Source of the DNA: Microbispora corallina
GTDB taxonomy: Bacteria > Actinomycetota > Actinomycetes > Streptosporangiales > Streptosporangiaceae
Assembly (NCBI RefSeq): GCF_016863035.1
Contig: NZ_BOOC01000022.1
Location: 62,001 to 126,000, forward strand
DNA length: 64,000 bases
Reading direction: 5' to 3'
Positions 30,105 to 59,741 of the stretch are shown piece after piece. The notes beneath the pieces are model-generated. The model was not told the DNA's origin, ran no database searches, and saw only the letters and a list, made by a program, of their open reading frames with translations. The translations under genes and the position numbers were made by a program. Each line of letters opens with the position of its first letter. Positions within the stretch are counted from its first letter, which is position 1.

Positions 30105-31007
30105 TCAGTGGTGGTGGGTCGCGTCGGGGTGGCGGGGGTCGGCCGGGTGCTCGAAGCCGGGCATGAGGCGGACCGCCTCCGCGTGCCGTCCGTCGAGCCA
30201 GCGGGCGAAGGCGCGCTCCCGCCCGGCCTCGGCGAGCTCGCGGCTGATGCGCTCCCGCGCCGTCTCGTACGGCTCCCGCCGCGCGGGGGCGACGCGCTCG
30301 ACCACGACCGTCCACGGTCCGCCGGGGCCGTCGACGGGGCCGACCGTCTCGCCCTCGCGGGCCGCGAAGACGGCGTCCTCGATCGGGCCGGTGATCTCGC
30401 CTCTGCGCACCGGCCCGAACGGCCGCACCCACCGGGTCTCCGGCGTCGTGAACCTGTCGGGGTTGCGCCGGTAGTAGCCGCGCAGCTCCTCTTCACCGGG
30501 CCCCTCGCCCGCCGCCACGGCGCGGCAGACCGCGCGGGCGAGCGGCATCGCCGCCAGCAGGGCCGCCGCGACGCCGCCGGTTCGCAGCGCCGCCGCGAGC
30601 GTCAGGGCCACGGCCTCGCCCGGAGCTCCCCCCTGCGGCCCTCCGGCGGTGATCCCCCGGCGGGCCGCCTCCTGCTCGACGAGGATCTCGGCCGCCATCA
30701 CCTGGACGACCCAGCGGCGCAGGTTGCGGCCCTCGGCGGTGCCCGGATGGGGAAGGCGCGCGGCGAGCGGCCCGTTCCTGAGTGTGGCCAGCCGCGCGTC
30801 CACCTCGGCGACCGGGACCGCTCTGCCGTCCACCACCGCCGCCACACCGGATGACCGCGCCCACCCGGCCGCACCCGAGGGCCGCTCCGGCCGCGCCACC
30901 CCGACGCCCCGTGACCGCTCGGGCCCGGCCGCCCCCGGTGACCGGTCCGGCCCCGCCGCCTCGACGCTCCGTGATCGCTCCGCTCCCGCCGCGGTCCGGC
31001 GCGTCAC
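30105..31007 (-). CDS. parvulin/SurA-like peptidyl-prolyl isomerase-type protein
   Basis: This 300-aa protein begins with a low-complexity stretch of repeated Gly-Pro-Glu-Arg-Ser-like units (about 5-50). A SurA_N-like helical region follows (VDGRAVPVAEVDARLATLRN). A parvulin-like domain then begins at YYRRNPDRFTTPETRWVRPFG and continues with GPIEDAVFAAREGETVGPVDGP. It ends in three His residues. No signal peptide is visible, so it may act in the cytoplasm. Its GTG start overlaps the stop of the mannosidase gene (GTGA), so it is made together with that very large enzyme and may help it fold. That role is inference. Confidence 0.75.
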   Translation of the reverse strand: MTRRTAAGAERSRSVEAAGPDRSPGAAGPERSRGVGVARPERPSGAAGWARSSGVAAVVDGRAVPVAEVDARLATLRNGPLAARLPHPGTAEGRNLRRWVVQVMAAEILVEQEAARRGITAGGPQGGAPGEAVALTLAAALRTGGVAAALLAAMPLARAVCRAVAAGEGPGEEELRGYYRRNPDRFTTPETRWVRPFGPVRRGEITGPIEDAVFAAREGETVGPVDGPGGPWTVVVERVAPARREPYETARERISRELAEAGRERAFARWLDGRHAEAVRLMPGFEHPADPRHPDATHHH

Positions 31008-34000
31008 CGGCCGACCTCGATCTCGACGGTGTCCGTGTAGTGCAGCCACCCGGCGCAGGCGACCTTCACCAGCGCCCACCACCGCCCCGGCCGGGCGCCC
31101 GCCGGGACCCGTACGGGGAACCGGACCTCGGCGTCCCCCGCCGCGGGCACGACGACGCCCGTATTCCACGTGGGGAACAGGTCGAACGTGTGCCACGGGC
31201 TGATGAGCTGGGCCTGGACGGAGAGCGGCGACAGCGCCTCCGACTGGAGCCGTACGGAGATCTCCGCCCGGCCGCCTGGCGACAGGCGCAGGAAGGGCGG
31301 GTCGCCCAGGCCCTCCAGGCGGACGTCGAGACCGGGGTGCCGGCGGCCGCCCACGTGCAGGCGGGTCACGTCCTGGTACGTCTGGCCGCCGTACTGCGTC
31401 GTCGCGGTGAGCGTGTAGAGGCCGCCCTCCGCGTCCTCGGGAGGGGTGAGCCGTACGGGGACGACCGCGTGGCCGCCGGGCGGCAGCGCGTACGGGCGGA
31501 CGGCCGGCTCCACGGCCCACCCGGCGGGAGCGGTGAGCGTCACCGCCCCGGAGACCTCGTCCACGGTCAGGTTCGAGGCGACCGACAGGGTCAGCCCGGC
31601 CGGTCCCTCGACGTCGAGGTCCTGCGGCGCCAGGTGCACCGCGACCGGCACGTTCCCCAGGGGCGCCGGGCCGGTGTTGTTCAGCCAGTAGCGGGTGTAC
31701 ACGGGCTGGTGCGGCTCGGCCGGCGCCGTACCGTCCGGGGATGTGGGCCGGGGTGCCGTGACGGGGGCGGTGAGCGTGACGACCTCCATGGCCGTGAGCG
31801 TGGCGGGCGCGTCGCCGGTGACGTTCTCCAGCAGGTCGGCGCGGAACCACTCGCCGATCGGCAGGCCGGTGGCTACGGCCGCCGGGCGCTCCGCGCCGCC
31901 GGCCTCGTACAGCCGGGCCGTCACGCCCTCGACGGCTCCCGAGGGGACGCGGCCGGAGGCGATCGGGTTGCCCGTCGCCTTGAGCGCGGCGAGCACGACG
32001 CCGGGGGCGGTCTCCAGGTACGACCGGGGCCCGGCCTCCCCGTCCGGCCCCGGCTCGGCGAGCACGGCCGGCAGGGGGTGGTTGAGGTCGTGGCCGAGCC
32101 GTACGAGATCGGCGTCCCGCCAGTCCCCCGGCGCGCCGACCAGGGCGCACTCGAAGGAGTGGGTCCAGTGCTGGAGCTGGAAGTTGGAGCCGTCGGGCGC
32201 GGTGCGGCGGGGCGGGTCGATCCAGACGCCGGACGGCCAGCCCGTGCACGACCGCATGAGCGACAGGTGCAGGGCGCCCGAGGAGTCGACCGCGAAGCCG
32301 GGGATCCCCCGGTTGAGCAGCCCGACCGTGTACTCGTCCAGATCGGGGTCGGTCGTCTCCACACCGGCCTGGACGGCCTCGACGACGGCGTCGGCCAGGT
32401 CGGCGACCAGGTCCTCGACCGCGCCCTCCCCGCACACCACGAGCACCGGCAGCGCGCGCGGCCCGGTGAGGTCGGCGCTCGGCACCCACACCTTCTCCAG
32501 CGGCTCGTCCGCCGGGATCCACAGCCGGGCCCGGCCGCCGGCCTCCAGCGTCCGGCGCAGCAGGTCCGCCTCGCGGTCGTCGAGCAGCCCGGCCACGAAC
32601 GGGTTCTCCTCGGGGGTGCCCACGGCGATGCGCACGTCCGGCAGGTTGGAGTCCACCGCGAGGTCGCCGTAGCGGGGGCCGGGGGCGGTGGAGCACGTGG
32701 AGGTGACGCCCTGCCGCACCAGGGCCACGGCGAGGTCCCGCGGCACGGGCCCCGACGGCGGAGCGATGATCTCGGCGACGCCGACGGCCCGGGTGCCGGC
32801 GGCCCGGCCGTCCTCCGACCGGACGCGCACGCGGACGGTGGACGACAGCGCGAACCAGCTGTGGGCGGGGTTGTCCAGCGTCCAGGGGTGCTCGGCGGTG
32901 TCGACGTCGATCAGCCCGAAGCCGCGGCCGATCACGGCGTCGCCGACCTCGCTGACCGGCAGCGCGCCGGGCACGGCGACGGGCCACCGCAGGCGCAGCA
33001 GCGCGTCGGAGCCCTCGAACTCGTCCACGTGCGTGGTGAGGTCCACCCGCGGGAGGCCGTCCCAGAGGGTGATCTCCTGGGTGTACGCGGCGGGGCCCAC
33101 CCTGCCGGTGACCGTGATCCGCCGGCCGATCGGGCATTCGGCGACCGCCACCTCGGCGTGCGACGCGGACGAGCCGGCGACGGTCCCGTTGGGCAGCAGG
33201 TGCCAGGGGCCCTCGTGGAAGCGGGGATGCGCGGGGTGCTCGCCGTAGACCAGCAGCTCGTTGCCGACCCGGCCCGACTGCAGCAGCTCCCGCCCGTCCA
33301 CGCGCAGGCTCGACACGGCGCCGCCGCGGGCCGGGTCCACCTCGACCGCGTGGGTGGCGTTCTCGATCCGGGTCCCCTCCCGTACGGTCCAGCCGACCGG
33401 CGCGGGCCCGGCTGCCGGGACGAGCCGGAACGTCCGGTGGCCCAGCGCGGGCACGTCCTCGGCGAGGAAGACGACGTCGACGGCGGCGAGGCTGCCGTCG
33501 GGGTGACGCTCCGGGTGCTCCAGGAGCACCGGGCGCTCGGGCGGGCCGAGGGTCACGCCGTACGACCCCGGCTCGGGGATCTCCAGCCGCACCCGCACGA
33601 GGTCGGTGCGCGGCCAGGAGGACGGGTTCCACACCACCACCGGTCCGAGGCCCTCGCTCAGCGCGCGCAGGGACGCGTCGAGCACCTCGCGGCCGAGGTC
33701 GTGGGCCTCCCGCCAGCCGGTCAGCAGGTCGAGGTAGACCTCGTCGGACTCCGAGCCGGTGATGCCGTCGTGGTGCGCGCCGTACACGAGCTGACGCCAG
33801 GCCTTGTCGAGCGCGGCGTGGGGGTACGGCGTGCCCCGGACGAGCGCCGCGACGGTCGCGAACTTCTCGGCGTCCACGACGAGCGACTCGGCATGCCGCT
33901 GGGCCTGCTTGGTGTCGATGAACGACACGTCCTTGCCGGTGTAGACGGGGTTCATGTCGCGGGTCTGCGGCGACAGCCGCACGCCCTCCCGTCCGGCCTC

Positions 34001-35158
34001 CTCCCGGACCGCGGCGAAGAACTCCCGGGGCAGGCCGCAGACGAAGCGCGGCGAGACGTACCGCGCGTTCCAGTCGCGCTGGATCCGGGTGACCCACTTG
34101 TTGGGCGGCGTGTAGTCGGTGCCGACCGGCAGCAGCACGTTGCGGGTGGCGGCCACCCGCTTCAGCAGCAGGAACAGCGAGTAGACGGCCGCCTCGGCGA
34201 GTTCGAGGGTGGCCGAGGAGTCCATCCACCAGCCGGCGCTGTAGTGGGCCGGCATGTAGTGGGTGAGCACGCCGCGCCCGGAGGGCGACAGCCACTCGAA
34301 CTCCGAGGGGAACTGCATGACCGAGGGGTCGTCCCAGCCGCCGGTCCGCAGCATGGGCCCCCACTGGTGGAACGGCCCCCGCGCCCACGAACTGGAGGTG
34401 AGGCCGGCGTCGGCGGCCATGCCGGGGAACTGCGGGTCGTGGCCGAACGCGTCGAGCTGCCAGGCCGTGGCCGGGTCGCCGCCGAGCACGTCGCGCTGGA
34501 AGCCGATCCCGTGGACGATGTTGCGGATCGTCGACTCGGCCCCCGTGAGGTTGGTGTTCGGCTCGTTGTAGGTTCCGCCCATGATCTCCAGGCGGCCCTC
34601 GGCCAGCAGCCGGCGCAGGTACGCGCGGTCGCGCGGGTGGGCGTCCCAGTACGGCTTGAGGTAGTCGACCTCGGCCAGCACGAACTTGTAGTCCGGGTCC
34701 TTCCTGGCCGTCTCCATGTGCAGCCGGACGAGCTCGAACCCCGATTGCTGGAAGTCCATCCGGTTGGCCTGTGCGGCGGCGCCCGCCGCGTCCCAGGTGG
34801 AGGTGTAGGCCGCCTGCGTGTTCCACCAGACGGGGTCGTAGTGGAAGTGGGGCACCATCCAGACCGTCCAGCCCGGCTCGGCGACCGTGAGCTCGCCCTC
34901 GGCCTCGCTCACGCCGTCGGGCCCGGCCACCCGGACGCCGATGGGGATCCGGGCGCCGGCGGGGTGGCCGGTCTCCACGGGCACCTCGGCGACGAACGCC
35001 TCCTCCCCCGCGACCCCGTCGTACCGGCCCGAGCCCTCCACCCCCGGCCCGGTGACCATGACGTCGGCGTGGGCGGGCGCGGGCTCGATCGTCACCCGTA
35101 CGACCTGGCGCGGACCCGGGACGAAGAGATCGGTGGACTCGACGGCGGTGATGCGCAT
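31004..35158 (-). CDS. GH38 alpha-mannosidase
   Basis: This very large (1384 aa) glycoside hydrolase belongs to family 38. The zinc-binding HFHYD motif (His104, Asp108) is followed by the nucleophile Asp236 in WQLDAFGHDP. HHDGITGSESD lies near residue 470. A long C-terminal part of beta-sandwich domains ends with an NEW3-like region. The family hydrolyses alpha-mannosides with retention. No signal peptide is seen, so it may act on imported mannosides or be released on lysis. The ATG at 35158 is preceded by AGGGGG. Its stop overlaps the parvulin-like gene. Confidence 0.88.
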   Translation of the reverse strand: MRITAVESTDLFVPGPRQVVRVTIEPAPAHADVMVTGPGVEGSGRYDGVAGEEAFVAEVPVETGHPAGARIPIGVRVAGPDGVSEAEGELTVAEPGWTVWMVPHFHYDPVWWNTQAAYTSTWDAAGAAAQANRMDFQQSGFELVRLHMETARKDPDYKFVLAEVDYLKPYWDAHPRDRAYLRRLLAEGRLEIMGGTYNEPNTNLTGAESTIRNIVHGIGFQRDVLGGDPATAWQLDAFGHDPQFPGMAADAGLTSSSWARGPFHQWGPMLRTGGWDDPSVMQFPSEFEWLSPSGRGVLTHYMPAHYSAGWWMDSSATLELAEAAVYSLFLLLKRVAATRNVLLPVGTDYTPPNKWVTRIQRDWNARYVSPRFVCGLPREFFAAVREEAGREGVRLSPQTRDMNPVYTGKDVSFIDTKQAQRHAESLVVDAEKFATVAALVRGTPYPHAALDKAWRQLVYGAHHDGITGSESDEVYLDLLTGWREAHDLGREVLDASLRALSEGLGPVVVWNPSSWPRTDLVRVRLEIPEPGSYGVTLGPPERPVLLEHPERHPDGSLAAVDVVFLAEDVPALGHRTFRLVPAAGPAPVGWTVREGTRIENATHAVEVDPARGGAVSSLRVDGRELLQSGRVGNELLVYGEHPAHPRFHEGPWHLLPNGTVAGSSASHAEVAVAECPIGRRITVTGRVGPAAYTQEITLWDGLPRVDLTTHVDEFEGSDALLRLRWPVAVPGALPVSEVGDAVIGRGFGLIDVDTAEHPWTLDNPAHSWFALSSTVRVRVRSEDGRAAGTRAVGVAEIIAPPSGPVPRDLAVALVRQGVTSTCSTAPGPRYGDLAVDSNLPDVRIAVGTPEENPFVAGLLDDREADLLRRTLEAGGRARLWIPADEPLEKVWVPSADLTGPRALPVLVVCGEGAVEDLVADLADAVVEAVQAGVETTDPDLDEYTVGLLNRGIPGFAVDSSGALHLSLMRSCTGWPSGVWIDPPRRTAPDGSNFQLQHWTHSFECALVGAPGDWRDADLVRLGHDLNHPLPAVLAEPGPDGEAGPRSYLETAPGVVLAALKATGNPIASGRVPSGAVEGVTARLYEAGGAERPAAVATGLPIGEWFRADLLENVTGDAPATLTAMEVVTLTAPVTAPRPTSPDGTAPAEPHQPVYTRYWLNNTGPAPLGNVPVAVHLAPQDLDVEGPAGLTLSVASNLTVDEVSGAVTLTAPAGWAVEPAVRPYALPPGGHAVVPVRLTPPEDAEGGLYTLTATTQYGGQTYQDVTRLHVGGRRHPGLDVRLEGLGDPPFLRLSPGGRAEISVRLQSEALSPLSVQAQLISPWHTFDLFPTWNTGVVVPAAGDAEVRFPVRVPAGARPGRWWALVKVACAGWLHYTDTVEIEVGR

Positions 35159-35268
35159 GGGCGCCCCCTGTCTCGGCTCCTTCGGTGCACCCGCCGCCGA
35201 GGCCGTCGGTCGCCCCCGGGGGACGGGTGACGGCCAAGACATCCCCCGCCCGTCGCGCGCTCACCCTC

Positions 35269-36091: not shown

Positions 36092-36417
36092 GAGGTGACG
36101 CTAGGACGGGCGCAGCGGGCCCGTCCACGGCGTATGCTCTGCGCGGATCAGCCCAGGGCGTAGGCCGCCCACAGACGCCGTTCAGGCGCACCGGTCGCGG
36201 GTGCGGACGGGACACGCACCGCCCCGCACTCCGGGCTCGGGCCGGGATCGCGGGCGGCGCACAGCGCACCGCGGACGCTCCTCCCTCACCGGGACGCGGC
36301 GGCCGCCGTGAAAGTTTCCACGCTTCGGGCTGGTCGTGGACCATGGGACGTTGGAGCGTTTGACCCCCGATTCGGCGCATTCCTACCGTCGGCACGAGTT
36401 TGTCGAGGGAGGATCCG
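36092..36417. other. intergenic region upstream of the GH3 gene
   Basis: This 326-bp gap between divergent genes holds the promoters of the MBL and GH3 genes. Its GH3-proximal half carries two candidate operators, listed separately. I see no other gene in it. Confidence 0.5.
36310..36343 (+). promoter_or_regulatory. two candidate sugar-regulator sites upstream of the GH3 gene
   Basis: GAAAGTTTC (36310-36318) is a palindrome of the kind reported before actinomycete xylanase and glucosidase genes. TGGTCGTGGACCA (36331-36343) resembles the DasR box TGGTCTAGACCA but has one extra central base. Both lie 75-110 bp before the start codon. Confidence 0.35.
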
Positions 36418-38715
<2,298 letters not shown>

Positions 38716-42959: not shown

Positions 42960-44777
42960 TCAGGCCACCTCGATGTAGTCCAGATTGGGGCAGCCGCCCG
43001 CCGTCGTGGCGGTGAGCCGGACGGTGTTGGACCCCGCGGCGAGCGGCACCGTCAGCGTGTCGGTCGCCCAGGTGTCCCAGTTCGCCGTCGCCGGGTAGCT
43101 CCGGGTGGCGGCCGCCGCGCCGTTCACGGCGATCGCCATGGGACGGTCGACCGCCGTGCCGTTGGAGTAGCGGATGCGCAGCGTCCTGCTGCCCGCGGCC
43201 GCGGCGGTGACCGTGAACTGGACGTACGCGCCCGCGACGTTGTCGGTGTTGACGAACCCGGTGCCGCTGAAGCCGGTGTGGTCCGACTCGGCGGCGCCCT
43301 GGGAGATCGTGGCGTTCTCCGCCTCGTAGCGTGCGGCGGGCGGCGGCTGGGTCGTCGAGATGTCCTTCCCGTTGACCGTGACGCCGGCGAGGACCAGGTT
43401 GTCCACGTAGTTCACGGTGGGCGCGGCCGTGGTGACGTTCGTGAACGTGCTGTTCGAGATCGTCACGTTCCTGATGTGGTCGGCCGAGCGGCCGTCCAGG
43501 GCGAACGCCTGCGCGGCGCCGTCGACGGTGATCCGGTCGGCCGTGATGTCTCCCACGGCGGGCGGGAGCGAGCCGCCGGTCTCGTAGTTGAGCGTGACGT
43601 AGAGCGCCGCGCGCTCCAGGCCGTGCCCGGTGACGCGGCGCAGGTGGACCCCCTCGATGAAGCCGCCCCGGTTGAAGCTGGTCTTCACGTAGAGGGCGTA
43701 CTTGCAGGGATAACGGCCGGGGAAGTCAGCCGGGTTGACCTGGCAGTCCTGGGCGAAGACGTTCCGCACGCCGCCGGACGCCTCGCTGCCGATCGTGACG
43801 CCGCCCCACCGGCCGCTGAATTTGCAGTTCTCGATGACGATGTTCTGGCTCGGCCGGTTCACGCGGCGGCCGTCCCGGTCGCGGCCCGACTTGACGGGGA
43901 TGCAGTCGTCGTTGGTGTCGAACCGGCAGTCGTGGATGTGCACGTCGGTGCAGGAGTCGGGGTCGCAGCCGTCGCCCTGGGAGTTCGTGCTGCGGAAGGT
44001 GACGCCGCGGACGGTCACGTTGACGCAGTACACCGGGTGCAGCGTCCACATGGCCGGGTTGGTCAGGGTCACGCCCTCGACCAGGACGTTGGTGCAGTTG
44101 TAGAGGCCGATCATGTTGGGCCGCAGCTTGTGGCCCTCCCCGAACTGCCGCTGGTCGACGGGCGTGTCGTCGGCGCCGTACTGGCGGAGCCTGTCGCTGT
44201 CGGCGCCGCCGCTCCCCATGGAGGACCAGTCGCCGGCGGGCGCGTTGCCGTCGATCGTGCCGGTGCCGCTGATCGCGATGTTGGTCCTGCCGTTGGCGTA
44301 GATGAAGGGCGAGAAGTTGTAGCACTCGATGCCCTCGTACCGGGTGAACACGTTCGGCTGGTAGGAGCCGTGGTCGGTGCGGAACCTGATGGTGCCGTTC
44401 ACCTGCAGCCGGACGTCGGACAGCAGGTGGATCTTGCCGGTGCGGTACGTCCCGGAGGGCACCAGGACGGTGCCGCCGCCGGCCGCGTTGCAGGCCGCGA
44501 TCGCCTTGGCGAAAGCGGGCGTGCAGTCGGTCGTGTTGTCGCCCACCGCGCCGTACGCGGTGATGTCGAACGTCCTGTCCGGGAAGGCGGGCGGGACGAT
44601 CCGGGCCAGGATGGCCGGGACCTGGTCCCACGGGGAGGCCGCGGCCGCCTGGGGAGCGGGGGTCGCGGCGGCGGCCCGGCCGGTCAGGAGCGGGGCGGGC
44701 AGCAACGCGCCGCCCGCGACCAGTCCGGCGGCCCTGAGGAATTCGCGTCGGGAACCATGCATGTCGGAAGAGCCCAT
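42960..44777 (-). CDS. Tat-exported GH28 polygalacturonase-like enzyme with CBM35
   Basis: This 605-aa enzyme probably hydrolyses galacturonan or rhamnogalacturonan outside the cell. A Tat signal (SRREFLRAAG, then a hydrophobic stretch to AAAA) precedes a right-handed beta-helix of family 28. The helix has DGCDPDSC and TNDDCIPVKSGRD (acid residues), GGVTIGSEASGG and YVKTSFN. A C-terminal CBM35 begins ARYEAENATISQGAAES and ends CPNLDYIEVA. It is the second of two paralogues and shares a 218-bp identical stretch with its neighbour. The ATG at 44777 has a weak ribosome site; MHGSRRE at 44762 is an alternative. Lying 108 bp downstream, it is probably cotranscribed with the other GH28 gene. Confidence 0.9.
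   Translation of the reverse strand: MGSSDMHGSRREFLRAAGLVAGGALLPAPLLTGRAAAATPAPQAAAASPWDQVPAILARIVPPAFPDRTFDITAYGAVGDNTTDCTPAFAKAIAACNAAGGGTVLVPSGTYRTGKIHLLSDVRLQVNGTIRFRTDHGSYQPNVFTRYEGIECYNFSPFIYANGRTNIAISGTGTIDGNAPAGDWSSMGSGGADSDRLRQYGADDTPVDQRQFGEGHKLRPNMIGLYNCTNVLVEGVTLTNPAMWTLHPVYCVNVTVRGVTFRSTNSQGDGCDPDSCTDVHIHDCRFDTNDDCIPVKSGRDRDGRRVNRPSQNIVIENCKFSGRWGGVTIGSEASGGVRNVFAQDCQVNPADFPGRYPCKYALYVKTSFNRGGFIEGVHLRRVTGHGLERAALYVTLNYETGGSLPPAVGDITADRITVDGAAQAFALDGRSADHIRNVTISNSTFTNVTTAAPTVNYVDNLVLAGVTVNGKDISTTQPPPAARYEAENATISQGAAESDHTGFSGTGFVNTDNVAGAYVQFTVTAAAAGSRTLRIRYSNGTAVDRPMAIAVNGAAAATRSYPATANWDTWATDTLTVPLAAGSNTVRLTATTAGGCPNLDYIEVA
44413..44630. repeat. 218-bp identical tract, copy 1
   Basis: This segment, coding for part of the GH28 N-terminal region from WDQVPAI to LLSDV, matches 46357-46574 at every base, in the same orientation. 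The flanking parts of the two genes have diverged. It looks like a gene-conversion tract between paralogues. Confidence 0.95.
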
Positions 44778-44885: not shown

Positions 44886-46670
44886 TCAGGGGCCGGTGAC
44901 GTCGAGACAGTCGAGGTTGGGGCAGCCTTCGGCGGTGGTCGCGGTGGCCCGGACCGTGTTGGTCCCGGCCCGCAACTGGGCCGTGACGGTCGCGGACGCC
45001 CAGGCGTCCCAGCTCCCGGTGCCGGGGAAGGCCTTGCCGGCCGCGACGACCGTCCCGTTGACCGCGATGTCCATCGGCCGGCCGGAGGTGGCGCCGTTGG
45101 CGTACCGCAGCAGCAGCGTGGCCGTGCCGGCCGAGGCGGCGCTCACCGTCCACTCGACGTGGCTGCCCGCCACGTTGACCGTGTCGACGAAGCCGGTGCC
45201 CGAGTAGCCGGCGTGGTTGGCGGCCACCGCGCCCTGCGATATCGCCGCGTCCTCGGCCTCGTAGCGGACCGCCTTCGGCCCTCCGCCGTAGAGCGTGCCG
45301 TTGATCCGGACGTTGCTCAGGACCACCCCGTCGGCGTTGGAGATCTGCGGCGCGGGGGTGTCGATGGAGGTGAAGGTGCTGTTGCTGATCGTGACGTTCG
45401 CGATGTGGCTCACCGAGGAGCCGGACAGCTTGATCGCGAACGGCGAGTCGTCGACGGCCAGCCCGTCGACCGTGATGTTCCGTACGACCGGGTCGGCGAC
45501 GGGACCGTAGCCGGGGCCGGTGAGGCTGTAGTTCATGTCGACGAAGAGGCCGCCGCGGTCGCAGGGGCCGCCGGTGAGGTTCCGGACGTGGATCCCGTCG
45601 ACCACGCCCCCGCGCCGGTTGTTGGTCTTGATGTAGACCGCGTAGAAGGAGCGGTAGCTCGAACCGGAGAGGATCCGGTTGTCCTGAGCGAAGACGTTGC
45701 GGACGCCTCCCGACATCTCGCTGCCGACCGTGATCGCGCCCCACCGCCCGTAGTAGGCGTTGTTCCGGATCACGATGTTCTCGCTCGGCACGCCGACGCG
45801 GCGTCCGTCGACGTCGCGGCCCGACTTGACGACCGTCCCGTCGTCGCCGGTGTCGAACGAGCAGCCCTCGATGAGGACGTCCGCACAGCTCTCGGGGTCG
45901 CACCCGTCGACCATCGCGCCACGGCTGTAGACGGTGACGTTCCGCACGGTCACGTTCCGCGACAGCACCGGATGGATCGTCCACATCGCCGGGTTCCTGA
46001 GGTGGACGTCCTCGATGAGGATGTTCGAACAGTTGTAGAGCTGGATCATGTTCGGCTTGAGGTAGTGCCCGTCGCCGAACCGCCGTTGGTCGACGGGGAC
46101 GCCGTCCACCGCCATCTGCTGCAGCCGGTCCCAGTCGGGCCCCCGCTTGTCGTCGAAGCCGAACCACGGTCCCGCCGCGGCGTTGCCGTCGATCGTCCCC
46201 GGCCCGGTGATCGCGACGTTCGTCCGCCCGTACGCGTAGATGAAGGGCGAGTAGTTGTAGCACTCGATGCCCTGCCAGCGGGTGAACACCGTGGGCAGGT
46301 AGGAGCCGGCGTCGCTGCGGAAGCGGACGGTGGCGCCCGCGTCCACGTGCAGGTTCACGTCGGACAGCAGGTGGATCTTGCCGGTGCGGTACGTCCCGGA
46401 GGGCACCAGGACGGTGCCGCCGCCGGCCGCGTTGCAGGCCGCGATCGCCTTGGCGAAAGCGGGCGTGCAGTCGGTCGTGTTGTCGCCCACCGCGCCGTAC
46501 GCGGTGATGTCGAACGTCCTGTCCGGGAAGGCGGGCGGGACGATCCGGGCCAGGATGGCCGGGACCTGGTCCCAGGGCGACGCGGCGTACGCCGGCCGGG
46601 TGAGCGGCCCGGCGAGCAGCACGCCGCCGGCCGCGACGCCCGCGCTCTTGAGGAAGTGTCGCCTGTGCAC
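44886..46670 (-). CDS. Tat-exported GH28 polygalacturonase-like enzyme with CBM35 (paralogue)
   Basis: This 594-aa paralogue of the downstream gene has the same plan: Tat signal HRRHFLKSAG, a GH28 beta-helix with DGCDPESC and TGDDGTVVKSGRD, GAITVGSEMSGG and VYIKTNN, and a C-terminal CBM35 (VRYEAEDAAISQGA to CPNLDCLDV). The differences in the acid and +1 loops suggest the two enzymes prefer different chain positions or side chains. The GTG at 46670 follows GGAGG at 6 nt. It lies 68 bp after the dehydrogenase gene in one probable operon. Confidence 0.9.
   Translation of the reverse strand: MHRRHFLKSAGVAAGGVLLAGPLTRPAYAASPWDQVPAILARIVPPAFPDRTFDITAYGAVGDNTTDCTPAFAKAIAACNAAGGGTVLVPSGTYRTGKIHLLSDVNLHVDAGATVRFRSDAGSYLPTVFTRWQGIECYNYSPFIYAYGRTNVAITGPGTIDGNAAAGPWFGFDDKRGPDWDRLQQMAVDGVPVDQRRFGDGHYLKPNMIQLYNCSNILIEDVHLRNPAMWTIHPVLSRNVTVRNVTVYSRGAMVDGCDPESCADVLIEGCSFDTGDDGTVVKSGRDVDGRRVGVPSENIVIRNNAYYGRWGAITVGSEMSGGVRNVFAQDNRILSGSSYRSFYAVYIKTNNRRGGVVDGIHVRNLTGGPCDRGGLFVDMNYSLTGPGYGPVADPVVRNITVDGLAVDDSPFAIKLSGSSVSHIANVTISNSTFTSIDTPAPQISNADGVVLSNVRINGTLYGGGPKAVRYEAEDAAISQGAVAANHAGYSGTGFVDTVNVAGSHVEWTVSAASAGTATLLLRYANGATSGRPMDIAVNGTVVAAGKAFPGTGSWDAWASATVTAQLRAGTNTVRATATTAEGCPNLDCLDVTGP
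46357..46574. repeat. 218-bp identical tract, copy 2
   Basis: This is the partner of the tract at 44413-44630, with no mismatch found on reading both copies through. Their start points are 1944 bp apart. Confidence 0.95.
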
Positions 46671-46738: not shown

Positions 46739-48802
46739 TCAGGTGATCGTGACGCGGAAGATCCGGTCCGATCCGGGCGCGGCATCGCCGTTGTTGTCGC
46801 AGTTGGTGGTGCTGAGCCACAGCTGGTCGGCGCCGGGCACCGTGACGACCGTCCGCAGGCGCCCGTAGGCGCCGACGTAGTACGCGGTCGCGGCGCCCAC
46901 GCTTTCGCCGCTCCCGATGGGGATCCGCCACAGCCGCTCGCCGCGCAGCGCCGCCATGTAGACCACGTTCCTGACGATCGCGATCGCGCTGGGCGAGGCC
47001 GTGTTGACGGGCCAGGTCGCCTTGGGGTTGGTCATCCCGGACACGCCGCAGGCGCCCTCACAGGTCGGCCAGCCGTAGTCGAGCCCCGGCTTGATCAGGT
47101 TGAGCTCGTCGTACGTGTTGTTGCCGAACTCCGCCTCCCAGAGCCGGCCTTGGGAGTCCCAGGCGAGGCCCTGCGGGTTGCGGTGGCCGTAGCTGTAGAC
47201 GAGCGTGCCGAACGGGTTGCCCGGGGCGGGCTTGCCCGCGGTGGTCATCCGCAGGACCTTGCCGTTCAGCGAGTCGCGGTCCTGGGCGAGGTCGCTCTGC
47301 TGGCCGTCGCCCGTCGTGGCGTACAGGTAGCCGTCGGGGCCGAACGCCAGGCGGCCGCCGTTGTGGTACAGGCTCTTCCTGATGCCCTGGACCAGGACGG
47401 TGTAGCCCGACAGGGACGTCCCGTCGAAGGTCATCCGGACGATCCGGTTGCCCTCCGAGGCGGAGTGCATGAAGTAGACGTGGTGGTTGGTGCTCCAGTT
47501 CGGGTCGACGGCCACCCCCATCAGGCCGCCCTCGCCGGCGTCGGTGCCCGTGGTGACGACGTTCGGCACGGTCCCGACCAGGGTCCTGGCGCCCGAGAGC
47601 GTCACCTTGTAGACGCGGAACTGGCCGGACACGACCTTGTCGTCCCGTTCGGTGACCAGGGCCGTCTTTCCGTCGGGCAGCCACGCCATCCCCCAGGGGA
47701 TCGTCCAGCCCGAGGAGATCTGGGTGATCGCCGAGGGGACGCCGCCGTCGGACGACCCGCAGGACGGCGTGGTGAAGGTCACCGTGTTGCTCGCGGCGGA
47801 CTCGTTGCCGGCCGCGTCCCTTGCCACCACGTGCAGGGAGTAGGGGCTCCCGCAGGCCAGGCCGGTGACGGTGGCCGACGTGCCGGGCGGGGCGCCCGCG
47901 ACGGTCGCGTAGTCCGTCGTGCCGCTGCGGACGCGGTACTCCGTGACCCCGACGTCGTCCGCCGAGGCGGTCCACTTCAGCGTCACGCTGCCCGCGGTCA
48001 GCCCGGAGTAGGCCAGGTTGGACGGCGCGGTCGGCGCCTTGGTGTCGCCGCTCCGCAGGGTGGTGCAGATCGCCTGCGCGCTGGGCGGCGAGACGTTGCC
48101 CGCCGCGTCCCTGGCGAACACCGACAGGCGGTACTCGGTGTTCGGGGTGAGGCCGCTGATCCGCGCCGAGGTGACGTTCCCCGCCTCGGCGATCTTGTTG
48201 CCGTCGTTGTAGATGTCGTAGGCCGCGACGCCGGCGTCGTCGGTGGACGCGCCCCAGTTCAGCGTGAGCGAGGTCGAGCCGACGGAGGAGCACGACGGCC
48301 GGCCGGGCGTGCTCGGCGGCACCGTGTCCGCCGGGTCGCCGACGACGAGCGAGTCGAGGTTCGGGCCGCCGTTCGCCGAGGTGGCGGTGGCCCGGACCGT
48401 GTTCGGCCCTGACTTCAGGCTCGCGTTGACGCTGAGGGTCTGCCAGGCGTCCCAGCCGCCCGTGCCGGGGAAGACGAGGTTCGTCACGACCGTGCCGTTC
48501 ACGACGACGTCCACGGGCCGGGCCACCGTCGTGCCGTTCGCGTAACGGAAGGTCAGGCCGTACGTCCCCGCGCCGTTAGCGCTCACGGCGAACTGGACGT
48601 AGGAGCCGGTGGTGTTGACGTAGTCGACGAAGCCGCTGCCGGTGTACCCGGAGTGGTTGTGGGCGGCCGTGCCCTGGGAGATGGTCGCGTCCTCGGCCTG
48701 GTACGTCGTCGCGGCGGCGGCCGGGCCGGCCACCCCGAGAAGCCCTCCCAGCAGCGCGGCCGCGACGACCACGGCGCGTGCTGCGGGCCTTCCAGATCTC
48801 AT
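46739..48802 (-). CDS. secreted CBM35-FnIII-FnIII-PQQ-type sugar dehydrogenase
   Basis: This 687-aa extracellular oxidoreductase has a signal peptide (ARAVVVAAALLGGLLGVAGPAAA) and an N-terminal CBM35 (TYQAEDATISQGTAAHNHSG). Two fibronectin III domains follow (PPSTPGRPSCSSVGS and APTAPSNLAYSGLTA). A C-terminal beta-propeller of the glucose/sorbosone dehydrogenase family carries IPWGMAWLPDG, YHNGGRLAFGPDGYLYATTGDG (the His is the expected catalytic base) and SYGHRNPQGLAWD. Related propellers use PQQ, including the CBM-bearing AA12 pyranose dehydrogenase of a fungus. The ATG at 48802 follows AGGAGG. It heads the leftward half of the pectin-like locus. Confidence 0.9.
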   Translation of the reverse strand: MRSGRPAARAVVVAAALLGGLLGVAGPAAAATTYQAEDATISQGTAAHNHSGYTGSGFVDYVNTTGSYVQFAVSANGAGTYGLTFRYANGTTVARPVDVVVNGTVVTNLVFPGTGGWDAWQTLSVNASLKSGPNTVRATATSANGGPNLDSLVVGDPADTVPPSTPGRPSCSSVGSTSLTLNWGASTDDAGVAAYDIYNDGNKIAEAGNVTSARISGLTPNTEYRLSVFARDAAGNVSPPSAQAICTTLRSGDTKAPTAPSNLAYSGLTAGSVTLKWTASADDVGVTEYRVRSGTTDYATVAGAPPGTSATVTGLACGSPYSLHVVARDAAGNESAASNTVTFTTPSCGSSDGGVPSAITQISSGWTIPWGMAWLPDGKTALVTERDDKVVSGQFRVYKVTLSGARTLVGTVPNVVTTGTDAGEGGLMGVAVDPNWSTNHHVYFMHSASEGNRIVRMTFDGTSLSGYTVLVQGIRKSLYHNGGRLAFGPDGYLYATTGDGQQSDLAQDRDSLNGKVLRMTTAGKPAPGNPFGTLVYSYGHRNPQGLAWDSQGRLWEAEFGNNTYDELNLIKPGLDYGWPTCEGACGVSGMTNPKATWPVNTASPSAIAIVRNVVYMAALRGERLWRIPIGSGESVGAATAYYVGAYGRLRTVVTVPGADQLWLSTTNCDNNGDAAPGSDRIFRVTIT

Positions 48803-48995
48803 GGGATTCCTCCTGAGCGGTCTGCCGATGCAGACGGCGATGAGGCGAAAGGTTGGACCTCTGGCACCGTGATCCCACACATCACGACTGTTTGTCAACG
48901 CTGCGCGACACGTCCAGGACCGCCGGCTCTCGACTTCGCGGCTCCACGAGGCGGCCGCCGCCGAGAGTGGTCGCGGCGCGTTCATCGAGGCAGTT

Positions 48996-49268: not shown

Positions 49269-50852
49269 GTGTTCCTTCAGATCCGAGGTCCGAGAGCGCT
49301 CACGGCCGCGCTCGCGCTCATCGCGCCACTCGTGGCGGGCCTCCTGCCCGCCTCCGCCGCCGCCGGCAGCGCCGTCTACGAGGCGGAGAACGCCACGATC
49401 TCGCAGGGCGCCGTGGCGAGCGACCATCCCGGGTACACCGGCACCGGCTTCGTGGACTACACCAACGTCGCCGGCGGGTACATCCAGTGGACCGTCGCCG
49501 CGACCAGCGCCGGACGCCGGACCCTCACCCTGCGGTACGCCAACGGCACCGGGTCGGACCGCCCGCTGACCGTCAGCGTCAACGGGACCGCCGTGGCCAC
49601 CTCGCTGTCCTTCCCCGGCACGGGCGGCTGGGACGCCTGGGCCACCCGGCAGGTCACCGCCGACCTCGCCGCCGGGACGAACGTCGTCAGGGCGACGGCC
49701 ACGGGCTCCAGCGGGGGCCCCAACGTCGACTCGCTGACGGTCGCCGACGGCGCGCCCGCCACCGACTGGTCCACGGCAGTGGTCGAGTCGACGATGGCCC
49801 GCTACACCCCGTCGACGATCGGCGGCTGGAGCTACCCGGTCGGGCTCTACCTCTACGGCCAGTACCTCGTCTACCAGCGCACCCACGACCCCCGCTACCT
49901 GCAGTACATCAAGGACTGGGCCGGGCGCTTCGTGGACGCCGACGGGAACATCGGCCAGAGCTTCGGCAGCCTTGACAGCATGCAGGCCGGCAACATCCTG
50001 CTCGTCCTGTACAAGGAGACCGGCCAGAGCCGGTGGCGGGTGGCCGCCCAGAAGATCCGCACCCGGCTGAACAGCTACCCCCGCACCTCCGACCGCGGCT
50101 GGTGGCACGCCGACAACGACTCCCGCCAGGGCCAGCTCTGGGGCGACGGCGTCTTCATGGTCGACCCGTTCGTGATCCGGTACGGCCATCTGCTGGGCGA
50201 CGCCGCGTGGGGCGACGACAACGCGGCCGAGCAACTGGCCGTCTACGCCAGGCACCTCCAGCGGACCACCGGCCCGCAGGCCGGGCTCCTCTGGCACGCG
50301 TACGACGAGCCCGGAGGGCTGACCGCGAGCTGGGTCCACCCGGAGCTGGGCAACACCAACGGCATCACGTGGTGCCGCGCCGAGGGCTGGTACGGCATGG
50401 CGATCACGGACATCCTCGAACTGCTGCCCGCCGACCACCCCCGGCGCGCCGCGCTGATCGACATCACCCGCAAGCTCGTCGCCGCGTTCGCCGCGTACCA
50501 GGACCCGGCCACGGGCCGCTGGTGGCAGGTCGTCGACAGGCAGGGGGCGTCCGGGAACTGGCTGGAGACCTCCTGCTCGGCCATGTACACCACGACGATC
50601 TCCCGGGCGGTCGAGCGCGGGTACGTCGACCCGGGCTACCAGGTCTACGCCGACCGGGGGTACCGGGGCGTGCTGGCCGAGGTGTCGCTCGGATCGGACG
50701 GCCGCACGAACATCAGGGACATCTGCGTCGGCACCAACGCCAGCGACTCCCTCGACTTCTACTACGGCCGCCAGCGGGCGACCAACGACAACCACGGCCT
50801 GGGCGCCTTCCTCATCATGAACGAGCAGATGATCAAGACCGGCCGGGCCTGA
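49269..50852 (+). CDS. secreted CBM35-GH105 unsaturated rhamnogalacturonyl hydrolase
   Basis: This 527-aa enzyme probably removes the unsaturated uronate left at chain ends by lyases. It has a signal peptide (ALTAALALIAPLVAGLLPASAAA) and an N-terminal CBM35 (AVYEAENATISQGAVASDHPG). An (alpha/alpha)6-barrel of family 88/105 follows, with NSYPRTSDRGWWHADNDS, the typical QLWGDGVFMVDPFV and a late GASGNWLETSCSAMY. The GTG at 49269 follows AAGGAG at 8 nt. It is the first rightward gene of the locus and is followed 63 bp later by a lyase gene. Confidence 0.92.
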   Translation: MFLQIRGPRALTAALALIAPLVAGLLPASAAAGSAVYEAENATISQGAVASDHPGYTGTGFVDYTNVAGGYIQWTVAATSAGRRTLTLRYANGTGSDRPLTVSVNGTAVATSLSFPGTGGWDAWATRQVTADLAAGTNVVRATATGSSGGPNVDSLTVADGAPATDWSTAVVESTMARYTPSTIGGWSYPVGLYLYGQYLVYQRTHDPRYLQYIKDWAGRFVDADGNIGQSFGSLDSMQAGNILLVLYKETGQSRWRVAAQKIRTRLNSYPRTSDRGWWHADNDSRQGQLWGDGVFMVDPFVIRYGHLLGDAAWGDDNAAEQLAVYARHLQRTTGPQAGLLWHAYDEPGGLTASWVHPELGNTNGITWCRAEGWYGMAITDILELLPADHPRRAALIDITRKLVAAFAAYQDPATGRWWQVVDRQGASGNWLETSCSAMYTTTISRAVERGYVDPGYQVYADRGYRGVLAEVSLGSDGRTNIRDICVGTNASDSLDFYYGRQRATNDNHGLGAFLIMNEQMIKTGRA

Positions 50853-50915
50853 CCGGCGGCCCGTGCGCTCCACGCATGACTTCACCCACCCGACCCCCTC
50901 CACGAGGTGACCCCC

Positions 50916-51710
50916 ATGACCCGGACCCGCGCCCTCCCGCCCGCGCTCTGCGGACTCGCCCTGCTCGGCGCCCTGTCCCCCGCCCTGTCCCCCGCCTCCC
51001 CGGCCCACGCCGCCTCCTGGCAGCTCAGGTGGTCGCCGTCCGCCGCCAAGGACGGGCTCGCCGCGTTCGAGGGCGTCGAGGACGACCGGGCCGGCTCCCA
51101 CCCCGGCGTGACGCACATCTACGTCCAGGGCGACGCCTACCGGTTCGACATGCACATGCGGGACCGCGACAGCTCAACCGACCGGCAGCGCCAGGAGGTC
51201 AAGGGCATGCGCAGCCCTGCGGGCGGGCCGTACCTCGTCTGGAAGAAGGGCCAGACCTGGCGGCTGACCTACGCCATGTACATCCCGGGTTCGCTGAAGG
51301 CCACGACGACCTTCACGCACATCATGCAGATGAAGATGCCCGGGAACGACAGCTCGCCGATCCTCACCACGTCCCTGCGCCGGTACGGCAGCACCCCGAA
51401 GATCGAGCTCAAGGTGGAGAACTCGGGGAACGCCCTGGTCGGGGCCGCCGACCTCGCCCCGCTGCAGAACAAGTGGATCAACGTCGAGTTCGAGATGAGG
51501 ATCGACGACGCCCCGAACGGGACGGTCCACTGGGTGATCCGCGACGGCTCCACGACGGTCCTGGACGCCACCAAGACCAAGCTCGACACCTGGCTGAGCG
51601 ACCGGGTCCGCCCGAAGTGGGGGATCTACCGGTCGCTGGGCGACAAGTCGGGCTCGCTCCAGGACTGTTACCTGCTGCTGCGCGACCTCAAGGCGTACCA
51701 GCTCGCCTGA
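50916..51710 (+). CDS. secreted polysaccharide lyase (heparin-lyase-I-like jelly roll)
   Basis: This 264-aa protein has a signal peptide (ALCGLALLGALSPALSPASPAHA) and a beta-jelly-roll fold like the Polysacc_lyase family. Clues are DRQRQEVKGMRS, GQTWRLTYAMYIPGSLK, THIMQMKMPG and a closing RPKWGIYRSLGDKSG. It should cleave an acidic polysaccharide by beta-elimination. The neighbouring GH105 gene would then act on its unsaturated products, so a pectin or related uronan is the natural guess. The exact PL family is uncertain. It lacks the CBM35 found on its neighbours. The ATG at 50916 is preferred over a GTG three codons earlier. Confidence 0.82.
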   Translation: MTRTRALPPALCGLALLGALSPALSPASPAHAASWQLRWSPSAAKDGLAAFEGVEDDRAGSHPGVTHIYVQGDAYRFDMHMRDRDSSTDRQRQEVKGMRSPAGGPYLVWKKGQTWRLTYAMYIPGSLKATTTFTHIMQMKMPGNDSSPILTTSLRRYGSTPKIELKVENSGNALVGAADLAPLQNKWINVEFEMRIDDAPNGTVHWVIRDGSTTVLDATKTKLDTWLSDRVRPKWGIYRSLGDKSGSLQDCYLLLRDLKAYQLA

Positions 51711-57347: not shown

Positions 57348-57755
57348 CGTTCCCTCCTCGGCTGTGCCGTCGCGGCGCTTCCCGGGACGGCTTCCTTCCG
57401 GTCGAGCCGCCGGGTGCGACGGCTCCTGTCTCGTTCCGGACCGGAACGGTAGGCCCGCGACGGGCCACGCCTCGTCCGCCGTGAGGCTGATCCGCCGTCA
57501 CCCGCGGAGGCGACCCGGGACGGCGGGATATTGACGGCCCTCCGGGCCGCGGGTACGTTCACCTCAAAACTAAAAGGAAACCTTACTAATAGTTTCCCTC
57601 AGCGTCACAGGCAGGAGCGTCCCCGATGCCGCGATCCCCGCCCGTATCCGTTCGTCCGGCCTGTGCCCGCACCGTTTCCGCGACCGGCTCCGCCGTCTCG
57701 CGCGCGTCCACCGCACCCCTCCCCCCGCCATCAGCCCATGGACGTGGAGCACCAC
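57348..57755. other. upstream region of the chitinase gene
   Basis: This 408-bp gap between divergent genes is GC-rich, except for an AT-rich block at 57565-57600 that carries the repeats listed separately. From 57601 to 57755 it has only Pro/Arg-rich open frames that I do not consider coding. Confidence 0.5.
57569..57597 (+). promoter_or_regulatory. inverted-repeat operator upstream of the chitinase gene
   Basis: GGAAAC (57576-57581) and GTTTCC (57592-57597) form an inverted repeat around CTTACTAATA. AAGGAAACCTT (57574-57584) is itself a palindrome, and ACTAA occurs twice, 16 bp apart. This AT-rich block lies about 160 bp upstream of the start and is a likely sugar-responsive control site. 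Confidence 0.5.

Positions 57756-59741
<1,986 letters not shown>

Follow-up and report, generated by a model that had tools for sequence, protein, structure and literature searches.

What does a dehydrogenase with a carbohydrate-binding module do among enzymes that attack a uronic polysaccharide? The question is raised by P0001, a gene in a 64,000-nucleotide stretch of Microbispora corallina DNA (the window), which an earlier note had interpreted as a new oxidative step in pectin breakdown. As a whole, this interpretation is partly supported. We consider it likely that P0001 is a secreted PQQ aldose dehydrogenase in an oxidative cluster for a uronic, probably fucosylated polysaccharide.

The gene is confirmed as a real one, as it had been described. 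Its frame is open throughout and begins with an ATG preceded by an AGGAGG-like ribosome site, and the third-position GC in the longer frame beginning at 48985 is 0.95 and of the coding type. The N-terminal leader appears, by visual inspection only, to be of the Sec type. The fusion of a glucose/sorbosone dehydrogenase (GSDH) propeller to a CBM35 and two FnIII domains was borne out by Pfam and by the nearest structures: GSDH (PF07995) was matched at 2.7e-63 (214.7 bits against a cut-off of 25), Fn3 was matched in two stretches (5.2e-22), and a single N-terminal stretch was matched by both CBM_6 (3.1e-11) and CBM_35 (2.2e-9). The nearest structures show the latter module to be a CBM35 rather than a CBM_6. 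The mutual placing of the domains is unsure in the AlphaFold2 model (mean pLDDT 87.2), since its pTM is 0.56.

Table 1. Features of the locus and of one related cluster (coordinates are those of the window, or of the locus where one is named).
Feature	Position	Strand	Remarks
P0001, CBM35-Fn3-Fn3-GSDH, predicted secreted aldose sugar dehydrogenase	46739..48802	-	687 aa
CBM35 of P0001	48347..48706	-	residues 33-152; putative uronate-binding type, by nearest structures
Two fibronectin type III domains of P0001	47768..48313	-	approximately residues 164-345; limits of the second approximate
GSDH propeller of P0001	46802..47701	-	Pfam residues 368-667; H480, R541, N542, Q544, R648, R650
P0003, GH28 with C-terminal CBM35	44886..46670	-	GH28 7.1e-19; start taken as the GTG of VHRRHFLKSAG
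P0002, GH28 with C-terminal CBM35	42960..44762	-	GH28 2e-20; nearest structures 3jur, 5olp
P0004, CBM35-GH105	49269..50852	+	PF07470 7.6e-80; nearest structures YteR 1nc5/2gh4
P0005, polysaccharide lyase-like jelly roll	50907..51710	+	PF14099 2.9e-7; weak PL7, heparinase I and glucuronan lyase fold matches
Actinoallomurus purpureus F5/8C-Fn3-Fn3-GSDH cluster	L086:8474-21206 (also L152)		pqqD and pqqE seen in L152

The best Foldseek match of P0001 was 3das (47% identity, TM 0.91 on the target), which is titled as the PQQ-bound form of an aldose sugar dehydrogenase (Asd) from Streptomyces coelicolor, and phmmer and Foldseek agreed in placing 3das first, followed by 2ism and 3a9g. By these comparisons the propeller is an Asd-type soluble quinoprotein. 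The Asd proteins of S. coelicolor (3das) and Thermus/Pyrobaculum (2ism, 3a9g) resemble P0001 in propeller fold, catalytic His and PQQ-contact positions, at 34-47% identity. They consist of 334-354 residues without a CBM or Fn3, whereas P0001 has a CBM35 and two Fn3 domains ahead of the propeller, and its gene lies within a uronide-degradation locus. The sGDH-type subfamily TIGR03606 was rejected as an assignment for P0001 (107.7 bits against a cut-off of 434.55).

A parallel with the fungal AA12 pyranose dehydrogenases had also been drawn, and it holds as a functional likeness. CcPDH (AA8-AA12-CBM1), which oxidises C1 of L-fucose and D-glucosone, is a secreted PQQ propeller fused to a carbohydrate-binding module, as P0001 appears to be. 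The propeller itself groups with 3das, 2ism and 3a9g, and the Pfam scan of P0001 found no cytochrome domain; P0001 differs from CcPDH in belonging to another branch of the propeller family and in having CBM35 instead of CBM1. Membership of AA12 was rejected as far as tested: neither the 25 PDB sequences matched at E ≤ 1e-5 nor the 50 Foldseek rows listed included an entry named AA12 or pyranose dehydrogenase. PMC6881789 gives AA12 and Asd/sGDH different PQQ contacts and 15-20% identity, the AA12-specific contacts replacing Lys377 and Arg408 of sGDH; R648 and R650 fit the bacterial C-terminal Arg as described there, AA12 being compared by description only.

Residues H480, R541, N542, Q544, R648 and R650 of P0001 align with 3das, 2ism and 3a9g. 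In a propeller alignment of 70 rows, which included the query and held some genes twice, H480, Q544, R648 and R650 were invariant (70/70) and R541 and N542 were kept in 69/70. The catalytic His and the PQQ-contact positions, the loss of which would have spoken against the proposed chemistry, were thus retained in these alignments. The assignment of residues that touch PQQ follows PMC6881789 in part. The predicted activity of P0001 would be a PQQ- and Ca-dependent oxidation of an aldose.

The nearest structures of the CBM35 were also informative. In Foldseek it showed 50-52% identity to 2vzp/2vzr and 45% to 2w47; 2vzr is a complex with glucuronic acid and 2w47 a complex with delta-4,5-anhydrogalacturonic acid. 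As given in PMC9843283, the signature of uronate-binding CBM35s is a Trp in region A, an Asn in region B, an Asn in region C and a His in region D2, and uronic acids are the ligands of the group to which the CBM35 of P0001 belongs. H50, N89, W117 or W120, and N148 of P0001 fit this signature, the assignment to regions being our own, and the same residues align with 2vzp. The His, Asn, Trp and Asn are kept and mutually aligned in all four CBM35s of the locus (the dehydrogenase, the two GH28s and the GH105 protein), so that, judged by their residues, the four proteins have one common CBM35 type, and that of P0001 should be uronate-binding. The CBM35s of CsxA (2vzp/2vzr) and Clostridium thermocellum (2w47) share its fold; unlike them, it is fused to an oxidoreductase. 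Lyases and GH105 enzymes make or take unsaturated uronic ends. The uronate-type CBM35 of P0001 suits its locus, since a lyase-like gene and a GH105 gene adjoin it.

Pfam bore out that two GH28 genes lie directly 3′ of P0001 on the same strand. With the GTG at 46670 as start, the gap from P0001 to the first GH28 gene is 68 bp and that from the first to the second is 123 bp; strand and spacing would fit a P0001-GH28-GH28 operon. A promoter and terminator scan of the locus gave matches no more numerous than those in shuffles. 3jur, a near structure of P0002, is an exo-poly-alpha-D-galacturonosidase, and against the model of the alpha-galacturonidase BT4155, for which the cut-off is 800, the two GH28s reached only 273 and 314 bits. 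P0003 has a Tat signal match marginally under the cut-off. The GH105 enzyme that had been placed in the locus is real, and its match to YteR (7.1e-67) agrees with the assignment; its gene is divergent from P0001, on the plus strand, and is followed by the lyase-like P0005. P0005, a candidate PL7/PL13/PL20-like lyase, scored 31.0 against a cut-off of 29.9 in Pfam, its model matched jelly-roll lyases with Foldseek E-values from 5.9e-8 at a TM of only about 0.5, and no PDB sequence matched it at E ≤ 1. Neither P0005 nor the CBM35s on both GH28s and on the GH105 protein appeared in the earlier note. Other carbohydrate-active genes of the window, at 31004-35242, 36403-38715 and 57723-59741, encode GH38 with NEW3, GH3 with CBM2 after a proline/serine run, and a malectin-Fn3-GH18 protein.

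No gene for an electron acceptor was found in the locus. The suggestion that P0001 feeds electrons to other enzymes gained no support there: no LPMO partner was seen, and all three LPMO_10 matches of the genome are on contigs other than that of the window. The presence of these three matches is in favour of an AA12-like electron donor that drives redox enzymes, such as an LPMO, acting on the same polysaccharide, as is the fungal precedent, CcPDH driving LPMO9 and doing so less well without its CBM (PMC5960967). According to the same source, CcPDH needs its own cytochrome domain for this, a domain that P0001 lacks. Together with the positions of the LPMO_10 matches, this makes it very unlikely that P0001 acts as such a donor.

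To see how far the neighbourhood of P0001 recurs, the best 80 of 91 relatives from one scan of named genomes were resolved into 78 loci, of which the 53 with a GSDH domain were counted and the 25 without it were left out. A neighbourhood was taken as up to 10 kb on each side, less at contig ends, and a GH/PL set as at least two of GH105, PL, GH28, GH29, GH27 and GH95. The results showed such a set in 29/53 GSDH loci and in 0/20 ordinary GSDH loci, which we had picked from the window's order as a control. Genes for pqq biosynthesis were present in 13/53 loci and likewise absent from the 20 control loci; the Fisher values, 5.8e-6 and 0.015, are only indicative, given the relatedness of the loci and the separate sampling of the test and control sets. 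Nine of the 53 loci had both the GH/PL set and pqq genes and 19 had neither, and the GSDH gene carried a CBM35 like that of P0001 in 38. GH29 was found in 28 loci and GH95 in five. The closest propeller relative, from Planotetraspora (L097, the same gene as L154), is 85% identical and has two GH28s, a PL and a GH105 as neighbours; elsewhere than in Planotetraspora and L160, the GH28 matches are distant ones, at 25-45% identity. Among 15 GSDH loci from the window's order, some of which repeat the 78-locus set, four had at least two of the families and two had pqq genes. L160:18909-19844 is an ordinary-type GSDH gene near such a cluster. The tether varies, the Actinoallomurus dehydrogenase having an F5/8 type C domain where others have CBM35, and the family of P0001-like dehydrogenases may have more than one role.

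Several single loci showed further features. In Kribbella (L072:8288-9713), the CBM35 dehydrogenase is immediately preceded by a MauE-family gene and a gene for a 200-aa protein that begins like an exported one and was not matched in Pfam; a redox partner may be encoded here. In Microtetraspora fusca (L043:12565-16034), the dehydrogenase is followed by a CBM35 protein, weakly similar to GH18, and on the opposite strand by an SMP-30/gluconolactonase-type gene, the product of which could open a lactone. A Streptomyces open frame of about 1500 aa (L054:5493-10004), with its start unsettled, combines GH28, a GH29-like alpha-L-fucosidase, F5/8 type C and GH27-like parts. GH95 occurs in the Actinomadura and Nonomuraea loci L062, L063, L088, L095 and L098, and in L063 the GH95, GH29-like, GH27 and dehydrogenase proteins each carry two CBM35/CBM6 stretches.

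The pqq genes lie in the same run as the dehydrogenase in some relatives. In eight Streptomyces loci (L046, L047, L049, L050, L053, L054, L057 and L083), pqqE is followed by GH105, PL, a GH28/GH29/GH27 run and the CBM35 dehydrogenase, and pqqC also precedes where the contig reaches. When measured from the nearest possible start codon, which biases towards short distances, there was a 4-nt overlap between the pqqE stop and the nearest in-frame GH105 start in 7/8 of these loci (the gap in L047 was 159), and the distance between the nearest dehydrogenase start and the stop before it was -4 to 21 nt in 8/8. The pqqC/D and pqqD/E overlaps of L054 are likewise 4 nt. Within up to 10 kb on each side of the dehydrogenase, pqqB was not found in the eight loci; in the genome of L054, another contig carries pqqB with a second pqqC as its neighbour, and the PqqB-like matches in the genomes of L046, L047 and L050 are only 44-45% identical and away from the locus. 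In L046 and L050 (genomes G297 and G300) a single stop codon interrupts the pqqC match of the locus, and these may be broken copies unless the match overruns the gene. In Actinoallomurus (L086, L152) the order, all in one direction, is GSDH-GH29-GH105-GH28-GH27-GH29-pqqB-C-D-E. Streptomyces loci L078, L080, L081 and L082, and L153 from the window's order, combine pqqB, C and E with an adjoining GSDH gene that lacks CBM35.

All seven Pqq proteins scanned (from L054, L152 and L153) passed the NCBIfam cut-offs, with scores of 277 and 304 for PqqC (cut-off 240), 71 and 52 for PqqD (46), 474 and 497 for PqqE (381), and 325 for PqqB (245). On a GSDH tree from which L152, L154, L155, L156 and L159, copies of genes in the tree, were left out, the pqq label required at least six changes relative to loci with the GH/PL set and no pqq genes; 36 unlabelled rows were not counted, and gains and losses were not separated. 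In 19 genomes that we chose from the 53 loci, pqqC was present in eight, in five of them at the locus, and absent from 11.

Streptomyces, the genus of the eight loci, is also the genus in which pqqB-E together with 'gcd' are read as gluconate and phosphate-solubilisation genes serving glucose dehydrogenase (PMC12472026 and PMC11858620), and the title of a paper cited in PMC6881789 ascribes broad specificity to the Asd of Escherichia coli. P0001 could accordingly be a general sugar dehydrogenase that acidifies its surroundings by aldonic acid formation and releases phosphate, the polysaccharide neighbours being incidental. This is unlikely, since the GH105/PL/GH28/GH29/GH27 neighbourhood recurs in the clade and was absent from every ordinary GSDH locus picked, and the P0001-like CBM35 is found on most of the GSDH genes counted. 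In what is available of PMC11858620 and PMC12472026, the pqq genes are not tied to a glycosidase/lyase cluster or to a CBM35 dehydrogenase.

The window's own genome (97.94% complete) gave a different result from that of these relatives: neither pqqB nor pqqC was found with actinobacterial PqqC and PqqB protein queries. The PqqC query had matches in 51/297 genomes overall, and by our count in 10 of the 32 (out of 297) genomes of the window's order with a match over nearly the whole of P0001; the PqqB query gave a match in 7/7 genomes where it was sought. The NCBIfam PqqC model found nothing in the genome, its control likewise being without a match, and matches to the PqqE model were far under the cut-off. 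pqqC was found in 0/14 other genomes of the genus. Linked PQQ genes were thus found in some relatives and not in the organism itself, for which PQQ would have to come from outside. The locus looks accessory in the genus, since at E ≤ 1e-60 P0003 was matched in the own genome alone among 15. A second CBM35 dehydrogenase of this genome (L150, G000:C9), 71% identical and downstream of a GH20 gene, has neither a GH/PL family of the set nor a pqq gene alongside (L150/L151); like the dehydrogenase of L063, it has two CBM35-type stretches.

The lack of detectable pqqB and pqqC could be taken to mean that the propeller serves for binding only, without PQQ redox chemistry in this organism, and HHIP, a propeller not known to be enzymatic, is among the Foldseek matches. 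The PQQ-site positions are nevertheless almost invariant, the propeller is close to the PQQ-bound 3das, and E. coli relies on PQQ of the environment (PMC6881789). A role in binding only is therefore highly improbable, even more so than that of an electron donor to an LPMO.

The preferred reading, that of a tethered aldose dehydrogenase, would work as follows. After export, P0001 would acquire Ca2+ and PQQ extracellularly, the PQQ coming from an external source, and its CBM35 would tether it to uronic-acid ends of a polysaccharide that the CBM35-bearing GH28s, the CBM35-GH105 and the lyase-like protein would attack as well. The propeller would abstract the C1 hydride of a free aldose or a reducing-end sugar, with His480 as the base, yielding a lactone and PQQH2, the electrons of which would pass on to an acceptor. 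The substrate would be an aldose set free from a polysaccharide that is uronic and probably carries fucose or galactose, candidates being L-fucose, L-galactose, D-galactose and galacturonate. The first two are foremost, given the loci with GH29 and GH95 and the activity of the analogous fungal enzyme on both sugars (PMC4133262). With regard to the proposed step in pectin breakdown, the uronide or pectin-like locus with a CBM-bearing PQQ-type enzyme stands, and 'pectin' may be too narrow a term: the GH29, GH27 and GH95 genes of relatives suggest a uronic polysaccharide decorated with fucose or galactose.

Each part of P0001 and of its locus is of a known kind. The open-licence literature searched held no description of a CBM35-Asd fusion, of the recurrent uronide/fucoside locus or of pqq genes in the same run. 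We tentatively suggest, giving the idea slightly less than an even chance, that some actinobacteria have oxidative polysaccharide operons with cofactor synthesis built in, in which pqqC-D-E (and pqqB in Actinoallomurus) would form one head-to-tail series, in many cases with overlaps, with GH105, lyase and GH28/GH29/GH27 genes and that of the tethered PQQ dehydrogenase. On the surface of the uronic polysaccharide this enzyme would oxidise an aldose that may be L-fucose or L-galactose, and lineages like that of the window, which have the enzyme and no pqq genes, would use the PQQ of their neighbours.

Secreted PQQ dehydrogenases bound to polysaccharides are known from fungi, in which PQQ synthesis has not been reported (PMC6881789); the bacterial family would follow the same logic with another CBM and another propeller branch. 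The cofactor genes within the glycosidase run of some species would open a direct genetic approach to the substrates of such enzymes and to the reason for their oxidation. Some of the Streptomyces pqq genes annotated as gluconate or phosphate genes could also be read in this second way, and the species that have the enzyme and lack pqq genes would present a testable dependency on PQQ.
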